Source: Lactobacillus gasseri ATCC 33323 = JCM 1131 (GTDB lineage: Bacteria > Bacillota > Bacilli > Lactobacillales > Lactobacillaceae). Taken from it: a stretch of DNA of 64,000 nucleotides. Under the pieces are notes generated by a model. That model saw only the letters and a list, made by a program, of their open reading frames with translations, was not told the DNA's origin and did not search any database. The position numbers and the translations under genes are program-made. Below, piece by piece: positions 55,639 through 60,182 of the stretch (the first letter of the stretch is position 1; each line of letters opens with the position of its first letter). The stretch spans positions 744,001-808,000 of the forward strand of contig NC_008530.1 of the NCBI RefSeq assembly GCF_000014425.1. The letters are read 5' to 3'.

Positions 55639-56577
55639 ATGAAAGTAATAACATTAGATTATCCGATCTCTGCACCTATCACAAAGCAAAAGGTAATCTT
55701 AACGTTAGGTTTTTTTGATGGGGTGCATATTGGACATCAGAAACTTATTAAGGATGCAAAATTAATAGCCAAGGAGAAGAAGTTGCCGTTAATGGTAATG
55801 ACTTTTGATAAGCATCCTAAAGAGATATACAAAAATGATCATAAATTTGTCTATTTAGAAACAGCCCGCGAAAAAGAACAAAAGATGGAAAAGCTGGGGG
55901 TAGATTATTTAGTAATTATTAAATTTACTAAAAAATTTAGTCAGCTTAAACCGCAAGATTTTGTTGATCAAGTAATTATGAAACTCAAAGCAGATACAGT
56001 TGTTGTAGGTTTTGATTATACATATGGTCCAAAAGATATTGCTAATGTAGAAAATCTACCTAAGTTTGCACAAGGCAGGTTTCAAATTATGGTGGAGCCT
56101 AAGCAATCAATTGATAAGATTAAAGTTGGTTCCACCTATATTAGAAAGGCCATCCAACATGGAAATGTTGAATTAGCTGCAGCTTTACTTGGCCAGCCAT
56201 ATGAAACCTCAGGTATCATTGTTCATGGTTTTAGAAGAGGACATAAAATTGGATTTCCAACGGCCAATCTCGAAATTTCTGGTGCTAAAGTTTTACCTGC
56301 TGAAGGGGTTTATGCCACTAGAGCTAAAATAAATGGAAAATGGCATGATGCAATGACTAGTGTTGGCTATAATGAAACTTTTAAAACAAATCACGGCTTA
56401 ACAATTGAAACCAATATTTTCAATTTTGATGAAGAAGCCTATGGTAAGCCATTGACTTTATCTTGGTACAAGTTTATTCGTTCAAATAAAAAATTTTCTG
56501 GAATAGAAGAATTATCACGTCAACTGGATCAAGATAAGCGAAATATTAAGCAGTATTTTTATGATTTAGAAAAATAA
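55639..56577 (+). CDS. ribF: Bifunctional riboflavin kinase/FAD synthetase
   Basis: A 312-residue bifunctional enzyme making FMN and then FAD from riboflavin. The N-terminal FAD synthetase half has LGFFDGVHIGHQKLI near residues 23-37 and VVGFDYTYGP. The C-terminal riboflavin kinase half begins around HGFRRGHKIGFPTANLEI (about 195-212). RBS AGCGAGAG. It ends the nusA-to-ribF gene run. The ABC-F leader begins right after it. Confidence 0.96.
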   Translation: MKVITLDYPISAPITKQKVILTLGFFDGVHIGHQKLIKDAKLIAKEKKLPLMVMTFDKHPKEIYKNDHKFVYLETAREKEQKMEKLGVDYLVIIKFTKKFSQLKPQDFVDQVIMKLKADTVVVGFDYTYGPKDIANVENLPKFAQGRFQIMVEPKQSIDKIKVGSTYIRKAIQHGNVELAAALLGQPYETSGIIVHGFRRGHKIGFPTANLEISGAKVLPAEGVYATRAKINGKWHDAMTSVGYNETFKTNHGLTIETNIFNFDEEAYGKPLTLSWYKFIRSNKKFSGIEELSRQLDQDKRNIKQYFYDLEK

Positions 56578-56598: not shown

Positions 56599-56607
56599 TG
56601 ATATAAT
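56599..56607 (+). promoter_or_regulatory. Promoter of the ABC-F leader transcript (extended -10)
   Basis: TG-A precedes a perfect TATAAT (56602-56607). The -35 is A/T-rich and weak. The transcript would begin near 56614. Confidence 0.65.
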
Positions 56608-56650
56608 ATCTTTATCAATTGAAATCTAATATTGAAAGAAGGTTACGCCA

Positions 56651-56662
56651 TTGCGTTTTTAA
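56651..56662 (+). CDS. Putative three-codon leader ORF (M-R-F)
   Basis: TTG-CGT-TTT-TAA follows AAAGAAGG at eight bases. It overlaps segment 1 of the attenuator, so a ribosome stalled here would mask it. An overlapping frame from ATT at 56650 gives 13 codons, but ATT is a rare start. A very short leader ORF is known for at least one Listeria ABC-F gene. This one is inferred. Confidence 0.45.
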   Translation: MRF

Positions 56663-56780
56663 TCTTGCAAAATAGCATAGTTGAATTTTAATAAATATTT
56701 TCTCTTTTATAAGGGACGACTGTGCGCTTTTGACAAGATTAAACGTAGATGGGATATCTTCTTTTTTGCTTAATGAGGAG

Positions 56781-56814
56781 AAAGTCTACACTTGTCAAGA
56801 GTGTAGGCTTTTTT
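56781..56814 (+). terminator. Leader terminator before the ABC-F gene
   Basis: AAAGTCTACACT pairs with AGTGTAGGCTTT (12 bp, one wobble), followed by TTT. It ends only 14 bases before the ABC-F start. Confidence 0.85.
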
Positions 56815-56828
56815 CGTGAGGTGATTAT

Positions 56829-58334
56829 ATGAGCAATATTAAGATTTCAAACCTTTCTTTTAAGTATTCAGATAGTATTGAAAATATTTTTAATAATCTA
56901 AACTTAGATTTGGATAGTAGTTGGAAATTAGGGCTTGTCGGCAGAAATGGTAGAGGAAAAACAACTTTTTTGAATCTGTTACAAGGAAAACTGCAAGGAA
57001 CAGGAGCAATTCAATCTAAACTTGAATTTAATTACTTTCCTCTTAATGTGAAAAATAAAGAACAATTGACTCTCTATGCTTTAGAAGAACACGTTCAATT
57101 TGACCAATGGGAACTTGAACGTGAATTGAATTTAATGCAAGTAGACACTAATCTTATTTGGCAACCTTTTAATACTCTAAGTGGAGGAGAACAGACCAAG
57201 GTGTTGTTAGCTCTATCTTTTATTAATAAGGATGCTTTTCCTCTTATTGATGAGCCAACTAATCATTTAGACGAAAAGTCGCGAATACAAGTGGTTAGAT
57301 ATTTGCAAAAGCATTCACAAGGCTATATTGTTGTAAGTCATGATCGAGATTTTCTAAATCAGATAACTAATCATATTCTTGCAATTGAACATACAGAGAT
57401 TCATTTATATCAGGGAAATTATGCTAGTTATGAAGATACTAAAGAAAAGCGTGATAAATTTAATCAGGAGAAAAATGAAAAACTTCGTGGTCAAATCAAA
57501 GCTTTAAATGAAAGTAGACAGCGCATTAAAGGATATTCACTTCAATCAGAGAATAATAAAAAAGCTAGTGCCCATAAAAATGAGATTCATGCAGATATTA
57601 ATAAAGGTTTTTTTGGTCATAAAGCGGCTAAAATAATGAAAAGATCTAAGAACATTGAAAGAAGAATGGATAAAGATATTCAGGATAGAAAGGGCTTAAT
57701 GACAAATGTTGAATCTGTACCAGAATTAGAGATGAATTTTCAACCAAATTATCATTCGACTTTATTAGAGACTCGACATTTAGATCTAAAAGTTAAAGAT
57801 AAAAAGTTATTTAAAGACTTAAATTTAATCATTAGAAATCGAGGGATTGTTTCCCTTGAAGGTAAAAATGGAGCCGGAAAGTCTACTTTTTTGAAAAGCA
57901 TTTTAAATAAGAGTACAGATGTAACTTATCAAGGAATTTTAAATTTAACTAATGGCTTAAGGGTTTCCTATTTACCACAAGACTTCGTAGAGTATTCAGG
58001 TACTTTGGCAGAATTTTCTCAAAAGGAACATTTGTCTTATGAGAAAATACTTAATGTACTTAGGAAAATGGGCTTTCCTAGATCAAGTTTTGAGACGAGA
58101 ATTGAAGAAATGAGCATTGGTCAGCAAAAAAGAGTATCCATTGCTAAGTCATTAGTTGAAGAGGCAGACTTTTATCTATGGGATGAACCAGCAAATTACC
58201 TGGATGTGTTTAACCAAGATCAATTAATTGATGTTTTAAGAAAGACAAAGCCAGCAATGTTGTTAGTTGAACATGATGAGTATTTTATTAGTCAAGTAGC
58301 AAGTAAACGGATAGAATTAAAGATAGTTGATTAG
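56829..58334 (+). CDS. ABC-F family ribosomal protection/translation protein
   Basis: A 501-residue cytosolic protein with two ABC domains and no membrane segments. Domain 1 has Walker A GRNGRGKTT (38-46), signature LSGGEQTK near 118, and Walker B LIDEPTNHLD near 139. A charged linker (about 190-290) would carry the tip that enters the ribosome. Domain 2 has GKNGAGKST near 345, a modified signature MSIGQQKR, and WDEPANYLD. Length and the leader attenuator fit antibiotic-resistance ABC-F proteins (Lsa/Vga/Msr type) protecting the ribosome from lincosamides, streptogramins, pleuromutilins or macrolides. The exact drug is not predictable. RBS GTGAGGTGA. Confidence 0.85.
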   Translation: MSNIKISNLSFKYSDSIENIFNNLNLDLDSSWKLGLVGRNGRGKTTFLNLLQGKLQGTGAIQSKLEFNYFPLNVKNKEQLTLYALEEHVQFDQWELERELNLMQVDTNLIWQPFNTLSGGEQTKVLLALSFINKDAFPLIDEPTNHLDEKSRIQVVRYLQKHSQGYIVVSHDRDFLNQITNHILAIEHTEIHLYQGNYASYEDTKEKRDKFNQEKNEKLRGQIKALNESRQRIKGYSLQSENNKKASAHKNEIHADINKGFFGHKAAKIMKRSKNIERRMDKDIQDRKGLMTNVESVPELEMNFQPNYHSTLLETRHLDLKVKDKKLFKDLNLIIRNRGIVSLEGKNGAGKSTFLKSILNKSTDVTYQGILNLTNGLRVSYLPQDFVEYSGTLAEFSQKEHLSYEKILNVLRKMGFPRSSFETRIEEMSIGQQKRVSIAKSLVEEADFYLWDEPANYLDVFNQDQLIDVLRKTKPAMLLVEHDEYFISQVASKRIELKIVD

Positions 58335-58357: not shown

Positions 58358-58984
58358 ATGGCATTTGATTATAAAAAAGAATATAAAAATTTGTATCATC
58401 CTAAAAAGCAGCCTGAAATTATTAGGGTCCCTAAAATGAATTATATTGCAGTTTCAGGAAGTGGAGACCCTAATCAGGAAGATGGGACTTATCAAAAGGC
58501 TTTAGGATTACTTTATGGACTTGCTTATACTATCAAGATGAGTAAAAAAGGTGAGCATAAAATTCCAGGATACTTCGATTATGTAGTGCCACCACTTGAA
58601 GGATTATGGTGGTCAAAAGATCAGCAGAAGATTGATTATGCTCATAAAGAAAATTTTGCCTGGATATCAATGATTCGATTGCCGGATTTTGTTACAAAGA
58701 AAGAATTTGATTGGGCAATTAAGACAGCTACTGAGAAGAAAAAACAAGATTTCTCTCAAGCCAAATTTTTTACTTATGATGAGGGACTTTGTGTTCAGAT
58801 AATGCACACCGGTAGTTATGATAATGAGCCTGCCACAATTGAAGAGATGCATCAATTTGTAAAAAAAGAAAATTATCAGATAGATATTCAAAATCCACGT
58901 TATCATCATGAAATATATTTAAGCGATCCAAGAAGAACTAAGACTGAAAGGCTTAAAACTGTAATTAGATTACCAATTAAATAA
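58358..58984 (+). CDS. GyrI-like domain protein
   Basis: A 208-residue protein with a GyrI-like small-molecule-binding fold. Visible are KMNYIAVSGSGDPNQEDGTYQ near residues 26-46, YVVPPLEGLWW, and VQIMHTGSYDNEPATIEEMHQF near 149-170, ending NPRYHHEIYLSDPRRT. The pattern fits the stand-alone GyrI-like group, some members of which bind or hydrolyse toxic small molecules. It starts 23 bases after the ABC-F stop with no promoter between. It therefore probably shares the antibiotic-type attenuator, and a role against the same kind of compound is an inference. Confidence 0.8.
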   Translation: MAFDYKKEYKNLYHPKKQPEIIRVPKMNYIAVSGSGDPNQEDGTYQKALGLLYGLAYTIKMSKKGEHKIPGYFDYVVPPLEGLWWSKDQQKIDYAHKENFAWISMIRLPDFVTKKEFDWAIKTATEKKKQDFSQAKFFTYDEGLCVQIMHTGSYDNEPATIEEMHQFVKKENYQIDIQNPRYHHEIYLSDPRRTKTERLKTVIRLPIK

Positions 58985-59123: not shown

Positions 59124-60182
59124 ATGTTGACTGAACGGCAAGAACTTATTTTAAAGACTATTATCATGGACTTTACTCAGTCTCATGAGCCGGTAGGTTC
59201 TAAGACCGTGATGAATCAACTGCCTGTCAAGGTCTCAAGTGCTACAGTTCGAAATGAAATGGCGGCACTAGAAGAAAAGGGACTGCTTGAAAAGACTCAC
59301 TCTTCAAGTGGGAGAATTCCTTCGACTGCTGGTTATCGATATTACTTAGATCATTTGATTAATCCAGTAAAGATACCAGCATCCGTCTATAACCGAATTA
59401 TTTATCAATTAGACCAACCCTTTCAACAAGTTAATGAAATCGTACAAGAAGCTGCAAAAATTCTGTCTGATTTAACTAATTACACTGCTTTTGCCGCAGG
59501 TCCCGAAACTCGTTCGGTTAAAGTAACTGGTTTTAGGATCGTTCCTCTTTCAAGCCATCAAGTGATGGCAATATTAGTTACGGATGACGGTAATGTAAAG
59601 AATCAAATCTATACTTTACCGCATCATACAAATGGGGAAGAGATTGAAAAAGCAGTTCGACTAATTAATGATCAATTAGTTGGAAAGCCACTTAGTTCAG
59701 TTAATGAAGTGTTACTTAAGAGAATTGCAGATCATCTGGTTGCTGGAGGCTCAGCACCTGAAATTTTGGATTTGCTTCAAGATGTTATTAAGGATGCTGC
59801 TAGTGAGCAAATGTATGTAGATGGTCAGATTAATCTTTTGAGTAATTATGAGAGCGATGATTTAGCTAAAGTTAAATCTCTCTACAAATTAATTGATCAA
59901 AATGATGCTATTTCAAGCTTGATTGGTTTTAATCCTAAAGATGAAATTAAAAATGATTCAAAGTCGAAAGTTCAAGTTAAGTTAGGCTCTGAATTGCAAT
60001 CAGATTTACTTGAAGATTATAGTTTGTTGACTGCACAATATAGCGTTGGTAAGTACGGTAAAGGAACAATAGCACTACTTGGACCAACTAACATGCCATA
60101 CTCGCAGATGATCGGATTACTCGAGTATTTTAGGAACGAACTAGCAAAGAAATTGTTAGATTATTATGGTAGATTTAAGTAA
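59124..60182 (+). CDS. hrcA: Heat-inducible transcription repressor HrcA
   Basis: A 352-residue repressor of class I heat-shock genes that binds CIRCE. The winged-helix N-terminus includes [33 protein letters not shown] (about residues 22-54), then [19 protein letters not shown]. The GAF-like core and C-terminal [18 protein letters not shown] are normal. The two CIRCE sites upstream show autoregulation. The RBS is weak and G-rich (GGGGGCGAG), which may keep HrcA levels low. First gene of hrcA-grpE-dnaK(-dnaJ). Confidence 0.97.

Follow-up and report, generated by a model that had tools for sequence, protein, structure and literature searches.

A predicted ribosome-mediated transcription attenuator ahead of a chromosomal Lsa-type ABC-F gene in Lactobacillus gasseri

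Transcription attenuation sensed by a ribosome on a short upstream open reading frame (uORF) has been shown by experiment ahead of the ABC-F genes vmlR in Bacillus subtilis (PMC9226507) and cplR in Clostridioides difficile (PMC10201436); statements on these and the other published systems follow the portions of the cited papers that were available. The cplR uORF encodes Met-Arg-Ile within a clostridial consensus of MR[I/M], and the legend of Figure 3B in the same paper aligns the uORF elements of clostridial CplR and Lmo0919/VgaL (PMC10201436). Toeprints in Streptomyces place drug stalling at the start codon of ABC-F uORFs (PMC12421871). In Listeria monocytogenes, the resistance genes lmo0919 and hflXr are induced by lincomycin, and hflXr is preceded by a terminator/antiterminator switch with a small ORF that encodes a 14-aa RLR leader (PMC6310831). 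A literature search, within the portions of the papers that it returned, found no work on such ABC-F regulation in Lactobacillus. The leader described below is most likely a new Lactobacillus example of a principle known from Bacillus and Clostridioides, and would extend ribosome-sensing control of ABC-F genes to this genus.

The window, that is, the whole 64,000-nt stretch of L. gasseri DNA that was analysed, comes from a genome of 1,894,360 bases in a single contig. Within it, 251 bases separate ribF (55639-56577) from an ABC-F gene on the + strand (56829-58334) that encodes a protein of 501 aa. The protein scores 437 bits against the NCBIfam model of ribosomal protection ABC-F proteins (NF000355), above the cutoff of 380, and 603.1 bits over the full length of the Lsa model (NF000167), below the curated cutoff of 750; it is therefore named Lsa-type rather than Lsa. 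The top PDB match is LsaA (7nhk, E 1.3e-141), with an alignment that spans residues 1-498 and includes the linker joining both ATPase domains. By these family scores, the gene is of the antibiotic-resistance (ARE-ABC-F) type. The Shine-Dalgarno sequence of the gene, GAGGTG, occupies 56818-56823 on the + strand. In the genus, 42 of 75 genomes have a match to the protein at E <= 1e-100; among 397 genomes sampled across the family, 195 have a match. The same genome also holds the remains of a second Lsa-type gene, a fragment of about 66 residues with 76% identity (924793-924990 of the contig), which the nearest relatives, G030 and G015, keep as a full copy behind a similar leader.

A possible second gene of the transcript (58358-58984, + strand), perhaps under the same attenuator, starts 23 bases past the ABC-F gene. 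It encodes a GyrI-like protein (PF06445; structural match Lin2189, 3b49, E 5e-64), and one subfamily of GyrI-like proteins hydrolyses cyclopropanoid DNA alkylators according to the available text of PMC5684135. The gene is linked at seven of the collected loci, with remnants at two more, and was not seen at the remaining loci, several of which have little downstream DNA. The partner is confined to the nearest relatives and was rejected as a general component.

The 215-base leader ahead of the ABC-F gene (56614-56828) is read here, with a probability of roughly 0.88, as a ribosome-mediated transcription attenuator of this chromosomal Lsa-type gene. Transcription would start near 56613 from an extended -10 promoter of its own. 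When no drug is present, a ribosome would complete a three-codon uORF at once, and a large uORF hairpin (56634-56765) would then form, hold a stretch of RNA termed segment 2 and bury the Shine-Dalgarno sequence of the uORF, so that the polymerase would halt at an intrinsic terminator whose U tract runs to 56814. A drug of the peptidyl-transferase centre, with a lincosamide, pleuromutilin or streptogramin A as the likeliest candidates, would freeze the ribosome at the uORF start and cover segment 1, the 5' strand of the inner uORF hairpin. Segment 2, once freed, would capture the emerging bases 56791-56805, which belong to the loop of the terminator and to the inner part of its arms, and the resulting antiterminator would let transcription continue into the ABC-F gene. 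Such a switch would keep a gene silent without the drug, and the presence of that gene in a genome would therefore say little about its use.

The leader as a whole folds at -72.7 kcal/mol, compared with -42.1 +/- 4.0 kcal/mol in 200 shuffles (z -7.66). The same switch had been proposed from the letters of this stretch alone, in what is called here the sequence-only reading, and a check of the sequence recovers each of its elements in place in a fold far above chance. Segment 1, CGTTTTTAATCTTG at 56654-56667, pairs with CAAGATTAAACG at 56734-56745; the pairing is present as proposed, but the hairpin to which it belongs is larger, extends over 56634-56765 and includes the Shine-Dalgarno sequence of the uORF. 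The overlapping CTTTTGACAAG at 56727-56737 pairs with CTTGTCAAGAG at 56791-56801 through 10 Watson-Crick pairs and one G-U pair. The antiterminator reaches beyond these 11 bp and comprises 15 bp between 56723-56737 and 56791-56805. The two pairings exclude each other, as had been claimed, through the bases 56734-56737 that they have in common. The terminator likewise ends 14 bases before the ABC-F ATG at 56829, with a stem of 16 bp rather than the 12 that were first counted.

The uORF, TTG CGT TTT TAA, encodes Met-Arg-Phe and lies at 56651-56662 on the + strand behind the Shine-Dalgarno sequence AAAGAAGG at 56635-56642 (+ strand), exactly as the sequence-only reading had placed it, and this Shine-Dalgarno sequence is conserved in an alignment of 34 leaders. 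That reading had also cited a three-residue leader ORF of Listeria lmo0919 as a parallel, and no statement of such a length turned up in the text consulted. The frame M-[R/K]-x-stop with a Shine-Dalgarno sequence is likewise conserved in relatives. Leaders were scored for three codons, a Shine-Dalgarno sequence, Arg or Lys as the second residue and a position 140-260 bases ahead of the gene, with 200 rounds of dinucleotide shuffling as the control. The genus set comprises 55 leaders, or 52 distinct ones once three that are identical over 220 bases are dropped, and 42 of the 52 contain such a uORF (shuffled mean 0.39, max 2). So do 30 of 58 leaders from other genera of the family (shuffled mean 0.36, max 3), a set drawn from the higher-ranking matches among 195 genomes and not a random sample. 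Three of seven leaders from other families of the order have an M-K-N uORF (shuffled mean 0.06, max 1). The start codon within the genus is TTG in 37 cases, ATG in three and GTG in two; it is TTG in all 30 uORFs of other genera and in all three of other families. The third position is taken by Phe, Leu, Asn or Ile, apart from a single Lys.

Ten of the 52 distinct genus leaders fail this strict test. Three (L012, L032 and L046) have no leader of this kind, one fails by a Leu in place of Arg (L048) and one by an altered Shine-Dalgarno sequence (L049). The other five (L016, L018, L020, L028 and L067) have a longer or a two-codon ORF that still starts with Met-Arg or Met-Lys. The tripeptide uORF is absent from 28 of the 58 leaders of other genera. 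Longer Met-Lys uORFs, such as MKIANR, MKIAG and MKNANR, occur in seven leaders (L028, L097, L106, L108, L113, L117 and L118). That the frame varies in length beyond the second codon is compatible with drugs that halt ribosomes at the start codon. In two further leaders (L037 and L074) the gene is divergent, with 49-50% protein identity, and the leader has no blastn match to that of L. gasseri, yet it encodes Met-Arg-Phe, here with an ATG start.

Arg or Lys is the second residue in 75 of the 86 hits to a tripeptide uORF across the three groups, whereas the shuffles yield about five leaders with any tripeptide uORF. The 40 Arg hits of the genus use CGT or CGC, and 14 of the 15 from other genera use AGA; Lys (AAA or AAG) occupies the position in 20 hits. 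None of the 58 other-genus leaders and none of the seven other-family leaders matches the L. gasseri leader by blastn. The persistence of a basic residue, through differing codons and in unrelated surroundings, suggests that the amino acid is under selection and hence that drug stalling depends on context. Whether conserved uORF residues reflect sequence-specific drug stalling is left unsettled in the available part of PMC10201436, and the natural series of 75 Arg/Lys uORFs makes the question testable. A tentative reading, which on balance we consider unlikely, is that the second residue is selected as an amino acid and not through the RNA alone, which would make the uORF a context-specific sensor; Met-Arg or Met-Lys on a weak UUG start would set which peptidyl-transferase drugs, or what dose of them, trip the switch, and the hairpin that buries the Shine-Dalgarno sequence would render it single-use for each transcript.

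Conservation of the helices was assessed in 34 non-redundant leaders of the genus, the remainder of 46 core leaders after removal of 12 that are more than 95% alike. Four differing leaders (L037, L074, L075 and L076), one at a contig end (L010) and the three leaderless loci (L012, L032 and L046) were excluded, and L027 and L028 likewise stand outside the alignment. Covariation across relatives, which had been named as a check on the proposal, is found in all three mutually exclusive helices, and each helix outscores its own versions slid by 1 to 3 columns.

The uORF hairpin, the putative anti-antiterminator (56634-56765, + strand), folds well beyond chance when its region is taken alone (z -5.66). 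In the 34 leaders, 75.8% of its cells are paired, 24 of 48 pairs are changed on both sides and the covariation score is 0.172, compared with 0.147 in shuffled alignments (reached in 0 of 500) and at most 0.109 in slid versions; the count of further pair types is matched by 64 of 500 shuffles. The helix formed by segment 1 (56654-56667, + strand) has 89.7% of cells paired and seven of 10 pairs changed on both sides. The weaker parts are the outer helices, paired in 70% and 67% of cells, and the apical hairpin, paired in 60%. Tested without the alignment, the arm that holds the uORF Shine-Dalgarno sequence is among the top 5% relative to shuffles for 27 of the 34 leaders. RNAalifold returns both inner stems when no structure is given. 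For 26 of the 30 leaders from other genera, pairing of the uORF stretch with downstream sequence is stronger than in 95% of shuffles. The comparative data thus support a conserved uORF hairpin, with weaker support for its ends.

The 3' arm of this hairpin contains TTCTTT (56759-56764, + strand), a match to TTNTTT, which is the motif of NusG-dependent pausing and matters in vmlR according to the available text of PMC9226507. Of the 34 leaders, 22 have a TTNTTT where the uORF hairpin ends; mononucleotide shuffling predicts 6.1. The same bases also pair with the Shine-Dalgarno arm, and the pause motif is therefore a lead only.

The antiterminator joins segment 2 (56723-56737, + strand) to segment 3 (56791-56805, + strand) and is prolonged by an imperfect helix that takes in much of the terminator. 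In the 34 leaders, 91.3% of cells are paired and six of 15 pairs are changed on both sides, a count that 45 of 500 shuffles reach; the covariation score is 0.282, compared with 0.208 in shuffled alignments (0 of 500) and at most 0.131 in slid versions. At least 12 of the 15 pairs can form in 28 leaders and fewer in the other six. Without the alignment, the duplex between segment 2 and the terminator outranks 99% of shuffled sequences for 30 of the 34 leaders. In L018, L020 and L070 the score comes from other pairings, which leaves 27 leaders for the antiterminator itself. The pairs 56732-56796 and 56733-56795 are changed on both sides in six sequences each, with the latter broken in eight. Both 56795 and 56796 lie within the terminator loop, and their changes therefore support the antiterminator and not the terminator.

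The terminator hairpin pairs 56778-56793 with 56799-56814 on the + strand and runs into a U tract. Its 16 bp, which include G-U and A-U pairs, amount to -19.5 kcal/mol (z -5.84). It is strongly conserved, with 94.4% of cells paired in the 34 leaders, changes on both sides of 10 of its 16 pairs and a covariation score of 0.401 as against 0.283 in shuffled alignments (0 of 500) and at most 0.216 in slid versions. Some terminator is present in 32 of 34 leaders, and it is weak or misplaced in L018, L019 and L020. A strict definition recovers the terminator in 11 of 58 leaders of other genera (shuffled mean 0.2) and in six of the 30 that bear a uORF, and this test is perhaps too strict. A simple pattern scan lists the hairpin on the - strand only; the + strand hairpin was probably missed because its stem reads into the U tract.

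The sequence-only reading had suggested folding the leader with the uORF masked as a display of the switch. Such static folding does not display it: with the RNA ending at 56814, the terminator retains a probability of 0.94 and the antiterminator 0.02. Since the terminator prevails at full length even when the uORF is masked, the switch must be kinetic, and static folding was rejected in favour of partition functions computed at successive RNA ends, with the ribosome mimicked by removal of the RNA before 56669. A ribosome with the start codon at 56651 in its P site would have its edge at about 56666 and cover segment 1. RNA polymerase shields about a dozen bases, which places the decision at the U tract within RNA ends 56800-56808. 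Over these ends, with the RNA before 56669 removed, the antiterminator forms with a mean pair probability of 0.62-0.80 and the terminator with at most 0.01. In the whole leader, the core of the uORF hairpin stands at 0.97 and the antiterminator at 0.00 throughout the RNA ends, while the terminator climbs from 0.31 at end 56804 to 0.96 at end 56814. The modelling supports a switch that is thermodynamically feasible as a co-transcriptional event only.

The 75 genus genomes were searched with a covariance model built on the uORF hairpin (R1), under Infernal's stricter filters, which lose weak matches. There are 48 sense matches in 38 genomes; nine other rows are antisense readings of the same places. 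A full-length ABC-F match lies directly downstream in 43 cases, three of which have an in-frame stop (G005, G024 and G096). Three further matches precede damaged genes, one in two pieces (G070), one broken over three frames (G062) and one truncated (G008), and another is separated from the ABC-F gene by a contig end (G020). In these 75 genomes, under those filters, no other kind of gene turned up behind an R1 match. A strict pattern search matches 14 genomes, with no match for the reversed control, and an ABC-F match is present at all 14 loci. A scan of genome contigs gives nine loci, five of them in Lactobacillus (including L. kefiranofaciens, L. colini and L. xujianguonis), at which the uORF and its distance are the same as in the collected leaders. 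The Lsa-type genes at L012, L032 and L046, which lack such a leader and have no R1 match, are natural controls for studies of expression. The conserved uORF, the helix covariation and the linkage to Lsa-type ABC-F genes only all fit the attenuation that the sequence-only reading had proposed.

The orphan match in G009 (contig C7, 70512-70645) bears on a different explanation, in which the hairpin is a mere terminator of the upstream genes that end in ribF, the ABC-F gene is constitutive and the other pairings are by-products. In that genome the ABC-F gene is gone, and the leader and terminator persist after ribF, between it and an ORF that resembles 59124-60182 of the window, which we take to be hrcA. 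In L. gasseri, too, the leader directly follows ribF, with its stop at 56577, and the terminator would also block read-through from that gene. What a ribF terminator leaves unexplained is the conserved uORF, the covariation of the antiterminator within the terminator loop and a conserved extended -10 element between ribF and the leader. This element, TGATATAAT at 56599-56607 on the + strand, would place the transcription start near 56613-56614; its pattern, TGnTAnnnT, is found in 44 of the 48 genus leaders (redundancy not removed), no further than 75 nt ahead of the uORF and mostly at 43-55 nt, which argues for a promoter of the leader's own. A general promoter scan gives two promoter-like hits in the region, compared with 3.2 in shuffles. 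Similar leaders also stand ahead of paralogues elsewhere in the chromosome, as at G030:1091875 and G015:810972. A role as a terminator of the ribF transcript alone is accordingly considered very unlikely.

Very improbable as well is control that is mainly translational, with frequent read-through of the terminator and the ABC-F Shine-Dalgarno sequence hidden, by pairing of 56766-56771 with 56819-56824, until the antiterminator crosses this pairing. The pairing is part of the leader fold and lies within the best 5% of shuffles for L. gasseri (9 of 200) and for L003, L014 and L016 (10, 1 and 4 of 200), and both vmlR and cplR are described as having a second layer that sequesters the Shine-Dalgarno sequence (PMC9226507, PMC10201436, as available). 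Against it stand the strong and strongly conserved terminator and the rarity of the pairing, which reaches the best 5% in only those four of the 19 leaders, out of 34, in which it can be placed, with a mean of -7.2 compared with -5.5 kcal/mol in mononucleotide shuffles. As a general second layer, sequestration of the main-gene Shine-Dalgarno sequence is weak, with no placeable spacer in 15 of 34 leaders, although some species may use it in addition; it is not taken here as a requirement of the vmlR/cplR class.

A block at the presumed 5' end of the transcript is the main point in favour of a third explanation, in which a ligand or protein that binds the leader, and not a ribosome on the uORF, is the sensor. 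This block, ATCAATTGAAAT at 56614-56625 on the + strand, is conserved as TCAnnTGAnnT in 33 of 48 genus leaders. An Rfam 15 scan of the 64,000-nt window has no match at gathering score, and a permissive scan gives seven matches, all well under their gathering scores, which speaks against this explanation. What is conserved, moreover, is a Shine-Dalgarno sequence followed by a start codon, a basic codon and, in most cases, a stop, with exchange among TTG, ATG and GTG starts, and a ligand or protein sensor is regarded as extremely unlikely. The block itself contains the palindrome TCAATTGA at the presumed first transcribed bases, and its pattern recurs in the paralogue leaders. Six exact copies are present in the genome, compared with one of the reversed pattern. 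Only the leader copy has promoter-like sequence in the preceding 60 bases; the other five have none there, and the block was rejected as a genome-wide operator.

Scarcely credible, finally, is the suggestion that the sensor is a second mini-ORF on segment 2 (GTG CGC TTT TGA here, often ATG CAC TTT TGA in relatives). Many leaders of the genus do have this mini-ORF behind a Shine-Dalgarno-like sequence, but a ribosome stalled on it would occupy the antiterminator strand and so promote termination, several relatives have lost its start or its stop, and it was rejected on the ground that its Shine-Dalgarno-like bases belong to the extended antiterminator, where pairing with the 3' arm of the terminator would explain their conservation.

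The preferred reading, a ribosome-mediated attenuator, can be set beside the described systems as far as the available parts of the respective papers allow. With vmlR of B. subtilis, the L. gasseri leader shares a three-codon uORF within an anti-antiterminator, an antiterminator, an intrinsic terminator, a TTNTTT motif and a downstream ABC-F gene, and the lengths are similar, at 219 nt for vmlR and about 215 nt here (PMC9226507). The two differ in the peptide, which is Met-Ile-Asn from an AUG start in vmlR and Met-Arg-Phe from a UUG start in L. gasseri, and in the position of the uORF Shine-Dalgarno sequence, which is single-stranded ahead of the hairpin in vmlR and inside the hairpin here (PMC9226507). 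A fourth hairpin that sequesters a Shine-Dalgarno sequence in vmlR is not clearly present in L. gasseri, and the drug response of vmlR is experimental, whereas the L. gasseri switch is predicted from sequence (PMC9226507).

The cplR leader of C. difficile shares an M-R-x uORF hidden in a 5' hairpin, followed by an antiterminator and a terminator (PMC10201436). Its terminator hairpin hides the Shine-Dalgarno sequence of the main gene, whereas that of L. gasseri lies 3' of the U tract, and CplR belongs to another ABC-F subfamily than the L. gasseri protein (PMC10201436). The closest subfamily is that of LsaA from Enterococcus faecalis, with a uORF consensus given as MAGN (PMC10201436); in contrast, M-[R/K]-[F/L/N/I] is found in Lactobacillaceae and M-K-N in three of seven leaders from other families. 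Tripeptide uORFs with a TTG start are also known from are5sc of Streptomyces coelicolor, which encodes MLV, belongs to another subfamily and has a second, overlapping uORF described as not translated (PMC12421871). By its sequence, the L. gasseri leader has the defining features of the vmlR/cplR class that can be tested at this level, and its predicted Met-Arg-x peptide resembles that of clostridial CplR, not that of enterococcal LsaA.
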